From positions 310,001-374,000 of the forward strand of contig BAOK01000001.1 in the NCBI GenBank assembly GCA_000509225.1: 64,000 nucleotides of DNA. The letters are read 5' to 3'. Source of the stretch: Parvibaculaceae bacterium Mf 1.05b.01 (GTDB lineage Bacteria; Pseudomonadota; Alphaproteobacteria; Parvibaculales; Parvibaculaceae). Position numbers and translations under genes: made by a program. Below, piece after piece: positions 23,506 to 24,629 of the stretch; within the stretch, counting starts at the first letter, position 1, and every line of letters starts with the position of its first letter. The notes under the pieces are model-generated. The model was not told the DNA's origin. It did not search any database and saw only the letters and a list, made by a program, of their open reading frames with translations.

Positions 23506-23598
23506 TGTCATTGCCCGATTCATTCGGGCAATCCAGGGTTCCATATACGAGCATCAGCTACGTCGCCCTGGATCACCCGAACAAGTCGGGTGATGACA
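23506..23598. repeat. Compound palindromic repeat (BIME-like), copy 4
   Basis: Left unit TGTCATTGCCCGATTCATTC then GGGCAATCCAGGG; right unit CCCTGGATCACCCGAACAAG then TCGGGTGATGACA. Ends TGTCAT/ATGACA and CCAGGG/CCCTGG pair across an unrelated centre of about 27 bases, giving a long cruciform-capable structure upstream of the DUF169 gene. Confidence 0.75.
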
Positions 23599-23794
23599 TC
23601 TTCTATCAATGTCGCGAGCTTGGGTGCCCTACTCAATGTGTCTTGTATGACGTGTCGTCTTCAGTCTCTCTTCACACTCTGTGACTCTTGCATCACACAT
23701 TGCGCTCAAGTTTGTCTTGGAGCGGATGAAACAAAAAAACATGCAGAAGTGTTGTTGACGTTGCGTGAGTGCGGGTGTACTCAAGCGCCCATGA

Positions 23795-23930
23795 CAGTGA
23801 CCACAAAATATCGGCGCCCATTTATGGGCTGGCAATCGGAGCCCTGGGGCGGGCTCCTTTGCGACTAAGCGTACCTACGCTTATCCGAAGTCACTTTCAA
23901 AGCCCCACCAGATCCTGTTGGGGCTTTTTG
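23795..23930 (+). ncRNA. Candidate small RNA: four consecutive hairpins ending in an intrinsic terminator
   Basis: Within 115 bases there are four perfect or near-perfect stem-loops in a row: GCCCA/TGGGC (23816-23829), GGAGCCC/GGGCTCC (23838-23857), TAAGCGT/ACGCTTA (23866-23883), and the terminator AAAGCCCCA...TGGGGCTTT (23899-23927) with a TTTTT tail. The tail puts the transcript on the plus strand. A TTGACG at 23755-23760 may be the -35 box, though the -10 is weak, so the 5-prime end is uncertain. It does not match tmRNA, SRP RNA, RNase P RNA or 6S RNA as I know them. No open frame explains the stems. Confidence 0.55.
23899..23930 (+). terminator. Strong intrinsic terminator of the RNA candidate
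   Basis: Nine-base-pair stem AAAGCCCCA/TGGGGCTTT extended by an inner CAG/CTG pairing across one mismatch, loop ATC, followed by T5. Confidence 0.85.
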
Positions 23931-24260
23931 TATGTATGGCCCCAAAAGGTGACCCGATAACAATCGAAGGATAGTCAGATGGTTTGTTTTCAATCCCAAA
24001 CGCTGAAAAACCCTGCGATTCACGTGTCTGTCGGTTCGTACGCTTAACGTCCTGCCTCACGTTTTCCGCTTCGGCTTTTCAGTGATGTAACGCGCGAGTT
24101 TCGCGCACCGGCTCTGCGACCTGTTCGTCGCGGTGAGGGGTTTCGCTCATCTTTCAGGTGAGGCGCTGTCGGTCGGCTCGATCAATAAATCTGTACAAGG
24201 AGTTTCCGTGTGTCGGGAGCGATCAATTTCGCTCGCCCTCGCGTACGGAGCATAAAGAAA

Positions 24261-24629
24261 ATGAATATCGAACTAGAGAGAGAAACTTTGTTCAATCTGA
24301 CGCACGCGCGGACTATTGCCGTGGGTGCGGCATTGTTCCTGTTCCTCGTCCACCGGTTGGGGCTCGATCCCGCGGAGGATTTGTTTGAATGGTTGCTGGT
24401 GGTGGTTCCGGCTCTCGAAATCTCCGGTGTTGCCTGGTTGTTTGCGGCACTCGGCGATCATGACAATCCGGCTGATCCCGTGAATGGTAATTGGACCGGC
24501 CTTGCATCAGCGCTTCGGTGGTTTGGCTGTGTCGTGGCGCTCAACTGGGCAGCTGCGCTCTTCATTGCCTCTACCATTGAGGCTTACGTCACGCTTGGTG
24601 GACCGACTGTCTATATGCCGGTGATGTAA
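24261..24629 (+). CDS. Small membrane protein of unknown function
   Basis: 122 residues from ATG 24261 (GGAG ten bases upstream), or 139 from GTG 24210, which has the stronger AAGGAG seven bases before it. Three hydrophobic helices are visible (about residues 18-36, 43-64, 86-106), with a conserved-looking NHDNPADPVNG-like loop (GDHDNPADPVNGNW). I do not recognise a family. It is isolated between gene-free stretches, so context gives no clue. Confidence 0.55.
   Translation: MNIELERETLFNLTHARTIAVGAALFLFLVHRLGLDPAEDLFEWLLVVVPALEISGVAWLFAALGDHDNPADPVNGNWTGLASALRWFGCVVALNWAAALFIASTIEAYVTLGGPTVYMPVM

Follow-up and report, generated by a model that had tools for sequence, protein, structure and literature searches.

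The window, i.e. the whole 64,000-nucleotide stretch of DNA analyzed, carries on its + strand, between a DUF169 gene and a gene for a small membrane protein, a compact element composed of a promoter, a short reading frame (mini-ORF1), an array of hairpins and an intrinsic terminator, followed by a second short frame (mini-ORF2). The promoter (23755-23783) has the -35 hexamer TTGACG (23755-23760), which the original prediction had placed upstream of the stems and which is indeed located there, a 17-nt spacer and the -10 hexamer TACTCA (23778-23783); the latter is weak by the sigma-70 consensus and was not picked up in one scan. Mini-ORF1 (23791-23868) encodes the predicted 25-residue leader peptide MTVTTKYRRPFMGWQSEPWGGLLCD, and its TAA stop codon (23866-23868) lies at the foot of hairpin P4. 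Because its ATG lies exactly 7 nt past the -10 hexamer, itself exactly 17 nt past TTGACG, a leaderless mRNA is predicted, with transcription presumably starting at or next to the ATG. Such mRNAs are common in Alphaproteobacteria, with 375 of them in Caulobacter (PMC4117421). The locus thus presents a short leader ORF between a promoter and a terminator, as in ribosome-mediated attenuators.

The hairpins P2 (23816-23820/23825-23829, 5 bp), P3 (23838-23844/23851-23857, 7 bp, on a 4-bp base at 23832-23835/23859-23862) and P4 (23866-23872/23877-23883, 7 bp) are contained, together with P1b, in a four-way-junction RNA (23792-23899). This junction is closed by helix P1 (23792-23801 with 23890-23899), whose 5' arm begins inside the mini-ORF1 start codon. 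The terminator P5, the putative attenuator, follows directly: its stem (23900-23926) pairs 23900-23907 and 23909-23911 with 23915-23917 and 23919-23926, and it ends in T5 at 23925-23929. The four tandem stems originally described therefore exist, spanning about 111 bases with T5 after the last; the 23786-23933 segment folds at -61.7 kcal/mol (z = -4.83; equally stable shuffles, 0/200), and the 23755-23935 segment gives z-scores of -3.9 (+ strand) and -4.6 (- strand). The accompanying statement that coding does not explain them was wrong, three of the stems lying in or at the end of the 25-codon ORF at 23791-23868. The RNA is unassigned, as had been proposed: comparison with the Rfam families gave no match to the element at gathering or permissive thresholds. 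No tRNA or tmRNA was found at the element, a DNA search for further copies in its own genome returned short chance matches only, and no copy was found on plasmids. Just 3' of the terminator, GCCCCAAAAGG (23939-23949) can pair with the terminator 3' arm, and this pairing seems to be kept via G-U pairs in two genomes of the genus (G005 and G006).

Mini-ORF2 (23979-24047, encoding MVCFQSQTLKNPAIHVSVGSYA), of 20-22 codons, lies 3' of the terminator, has an RBS-like GAAGGA and is preserved in each of the seven genomes of the window's genus, where its AIDVSVGS core changes mostly synonymously (pS 0.22, pN 0.085). The membrane-protein gene (24261-24629), the proposed target of the leader, encodes 122 residues with three long predicted helices. 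The protein belongs to no Pfam or NCBIfam family, and its AF2 model (pLDDT 81) has no significant PDB match; of 40 genomes from the order, 30 carry a homologue. On the DUF169 side, a 33-nt inverted repeat, 79% complementary and resembling an interspersed repeat, lies between DUF169 and the leader (23506-23598). Upstream of the promoter (23679-23699), the motif CTGTGAC, followed in most cases by CACA, is kept in 7/7 genomes of the genus and might serve as a site for a regulator of DUF169 or of the leader.

Conservation of the leader and its linkage to the membrane-protein gene

DNA searches located the element in 7/7 genomes of the genus, always between the DUF169 and membrane-protein genes. 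Mini-ORF1 is open in all seven, including G005, with a 12-nt in-frame insertion, and G006, in which the P3 arms are wholly changed; its peptide is poorly conserved (pN 0.15, pS 0.21). Among these genomes, P2, P3 and P4 stay paired although the sequences of their arms have been exchanged. The covariance check named in the original prediction indeed finds compensatory changes in homologous stems, such as G-C to A-U in P1 of G006, and the covariation score and number of double-changed cells of the junction in the genus alignment are matched by 0/500 shuffles; as the sequences number six or seven, of which five are closely similar, this covariation rests mainly on G004, G005 and G006.

A covariance model built from the window's genus (R1) gave weak matches in other genera, which fall just upstream of homologues of the 122-residue membrane protein. 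The resulting set comprises 30 leaders of the order, the window's genus included, and 28 of them share the same layout: a -35 hexamer, 17 nt, a -10 hexamer of the form TA...., 7 nt, the ATG, a mini-ORF and a terminator. In one exception (L078) the 7-nt gap is shortened to 6 nt, and another (L083) does not fit. A second model (R2), built from other-genus leaders only, has the window element as its best match in its own genome (G000:C2:333791-333933, E 0.004) and also matches in G005, G001 and G006 with E-values from 3.7e-8 (G005) to 4e-4. As R2 was constructed without the window's genus, these matches are independent evidence of homology. The match in the window begins at 333791, i.e. window position 23791, exactly at the mini-ORF1 ATG, which places the functional 5' end there.

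The leaders of the other genera differ in what they conserve. The P1-closed junction is not kept in those that are clearly homologous, P1 being absent, and their terminator covaries, with 8 double-changed cells, a number equaled by 0/500 shuffles. In the large sister genus g5, the last residues of mini-ORF1 before the stop codon are P[ST]GPGRxRxR. Pairwise comparison of the seven fixed codons of this motif gives 24 synonymous differences and not one nonsynonymous, while the other two frames have 36 and 102 nonsynonymous differences (two leaders with a shifted stop were left out); judged by this codon pattern, the motif is under amino-acid selection in the relatives. A class-wide DNA-pattern search for the ORF1 motif found one genome of the order and five further matches, which are probably due to chance. 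Confident homologues were found only in the window's own order, a narrower range than the wide distribution that had been considered possible.

The leader and the membrane-protein gene occur together in several neighborhoods: between DUF169 and M48 in the window's genus, between tpiA and ppiD in most of g5, between murJ and glnD in the genus g3, and beside hfaB, with differing upstream genes, in four further leaders (L078, L082, L083 and L121); tpiA, ppiD, hfaB, murJ and glnD were named from translations, DUF169 and M48 otherwise. All strong R2 matches precede the membrane-protein gene, none was found in genomes without it, and in G034 (a short contig) both leader and gene look damaged. In g3, only about 36 nt separate the terminator end from the ATG of the gene, which leaves no room for a promoter; the g3 gene is thus almost certainly transcribed by read-through of the terminator.

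Terminator, antiterminator and ribosome position

The P3 loop UGGGGC (23845-23850), which complements the GCCCCA of the terminator, is a candidate for the antiterminator strand; the two sequences read GGGGC/GCCCC in most genomes of the genus and GGGAC/GTCCC in G005. In this genus the antiterminator is weak, with 5-6 bp formed from a hairpin loop, and the complementarity in the window's own genome (G000) is not above that of shuffles (P = 0.21). In most single leaders the complementarity between the terminator arm and ORF1 is not significant, because both are GC-rich, and we therefore relied on covariation, on folds with the terminator 3' arm withheld and on stall simulation. When the 3' arm is withheld, the ORF1 GGGGC segment folds onto the terminator arm in most relatives. 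Their antiterminator contains three double-changed pairs, a number reached by 1/500 shuffles, with slid structures performing equally well on some covariation measures and with the invariant GGGGC/GCCCC core uninformative for covariation.

In the stall simulation, a ribosome footprint was blocked at each ORF1 codon and the RNA was then folded. In most relatives, early stalls up to a Tyr codon lead to antitermination and stalls at the conserved C-terminus to little or none; the turning point lies right at the Tyr before SPSGPGR, and in leaders of asd used as controls at the Thr/Lys run. Shuffled leaders rarely reproduce this early-late pattern. According to these models, the terminator and antiterminator pairings are mutually exclusive in the relatives. 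For G000, antitermination is predicted at Tyr7 and Trp14, and the early-late difference exceeds that of shuffles (3/60); since the early-stall level does not (19/60), we infer the switch of the window's own leader from homology. The leaders of G006 and L071 display no early-late difference.

Taken with the linkage, these data make the element probably the 5' leader of the gene at 24261, acting as a ribosome-controlled transcription attenuator. We infer its switching, and what holds the ribosome, as follows. A ribosome would load on the leaderless mini-ORF1 start and trail the RNA polymerase. On reaching the stop codon, it would cover the ORF1 GGGGC and its neighbors, so that the terminator forms and only an RNA of about 140 nt is made. 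A ribosome held early in ORF1 would instead leave GGGGC free to bind the GCCCC arm; the terminator would then fail, and mini-ORF2 and the membrane-protein gene would be transcribed. The terminated RNA of about 140 nt should exist as an attenuated by-product and, by analogy, could act in trans.

ORF1 contains no run of a single amino acid such as marks the classical trpL, thrL and asd leaders, and attenuators that respond to drugs or rely on arrest peptides can do without such codon runs. Compared with shuffled codons, those of ORF1 specify Tyr, Phe and Trp about twice as often, although the probabilities of this excess come from dependent tests, the lineages being related. A Tyr is situated near the turning point in nearly every leader, and Tyr7 is retained across the window's genus through synonymous TAT/TAC change. 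Aromatic codons, Tyr above all, are therefore the best lead to the signal; that the signal is the supply of aromatic amino acids is a tentative proposal, with the odds rather against it.

Alternative readings

The original prediction was of a new small RNA. Its RNA part is well founded, the element being structured, terminated, outside Rfam, under its own promoter and marked by compensatory changes; its independence is not, given the leaderless mini-ORF inside and the homologues before the same membrane gene. A small RNA that has a dual function or acts in trans (a short leaderless mRNA/sRNA), the pairing or peptide of which mainly serves elsewhere while the membrane gene is a mere neighbor, is nonetheless a reading to be weighed, as the promoter, the terminator and the stable conserved structure would suit it, conservation in the window's genus is stronger for the RNA structure than for the peptide, and rnTrpL/peTrpL of Sinorhizobium meliloti act in trans (PMC7298713). 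We consider it unlikely: occurrence without a fixed downstream gene, typical of a trans-acting small RNA, was not seen among the strong R2 matches, the leader instead accompanies the membrane gene from one neighborhood to another, and g3 has no space for a second promoter. Far less probable still is a ligand-binding riboswitch with the P1-closed junction as aptamer and the terminator as expression platform. Although in the window's genus the junction immediately precedes the terminator, it is missing along with P1 from the clearly homologous leaders of other genera, ORF1 begins at the predicted 5' end of the transcript, and no Rfam family matched.

ORF1 or ORF2 might also be a regulatory arrest peptide, its nascent chain stalling on a small molecule or on protein export and not through scarcity of an aminoacyl-tRNA. 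In many relatives (L071-L090, L121), mini-ORF2 ends in RAPP/RGPP-like motifs (IRAPP, IRGPP), as in MPLEYLNRFAGPALDIRAPPR. Motifs of this type arrest translation (PMC12992588, PMC10951233); RAPP and RGPP act as strong arrest signals, which proteomes avoid and upstream ORFs exploit (PMC12992588). The relatives' mini-ORF2 resembles ApdP, CruR and their relatives in preceding a membrane-protein gene and in having such a motif close to its stop, but is much shorter, with no signal or membrane segment seen. The ORF1 C-terminus P[ST]GPGRxRxR, kept in the relatives through synonymous change, also fits an arrest peptide. Both this motif and RAPP/RGPP near the mini-ORF2 C-terminus are, however, absent from the window's genus, and most simulated leaders terminate when the ribosome is arrested within the ORF1 C-terminus, so that such an arrest would switch the gene off; we therefore hold this reading to be doubtful. 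The RAPP/RGPP-like ends suggest a second control step via mini-ORF2 in the relatives. A two-stage leader, in which the junction-coded leaderless ORF1 would set termination and mini-ORF2 the expression of the same gene, the two peptides sensing two signals in series, appears improbable.

Relation to known attenuators

The attenuator reading finds its closest layout in trpLE(G) of S. meliloti (rnTrpL/peTrpL), with which the window leader shares a leaderless ORF at the transcript 5' end, an intrinsic terminator, a small terminated RNA and occurrence in Alphaproteobacteria (PMC7298713). It differs by the lack of a Trp run, by its target gene and by the second mini-ORF past the terminator; the likeness seen is one of layout. 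Further R2 matches include leaderless-looking Thr/Lys leaders of asd with terminators, encoding peptides such as MTQMLKKQKATTTAPGASKARV, from the window's order and another alphaproteobacterium (L149, L159-L163 and L167), and a similar Thr leader with TTT before thrS, the threonyl-tRNA synthetase gene (L150); both genes were named by NCBIfam. These leaders bear the hallmarks of Thr/Lys amino-acid attenuators. They share with the window leader the promoter-ATG layout, the leaderless-looking mini-ORF and a GGGGC-type segment opposite a GCCCC terminator arm, and differ by the Thr/Lys runs of their peptides and by their targets, a biosynthetic or a tRNA-charging enzyme. The asd gene of the window's own genome has no such leader.

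The leaderless attenuator is thus a kind already known; what is new is this leader and its uncharacterized membrane-protein target. An orphan structured RNA becomes a gene switch that can be put to the test, its start, ORF, terminator and target being defined, and the case illustrates that a covarying hairpin array can conceal a reading frame. The leaders form an order-wide family of probable leaderless attenuators, of which the member in the window is matched by no Rfam model, and the regulation of the small uncharacterized membrane protein may reveal its function.
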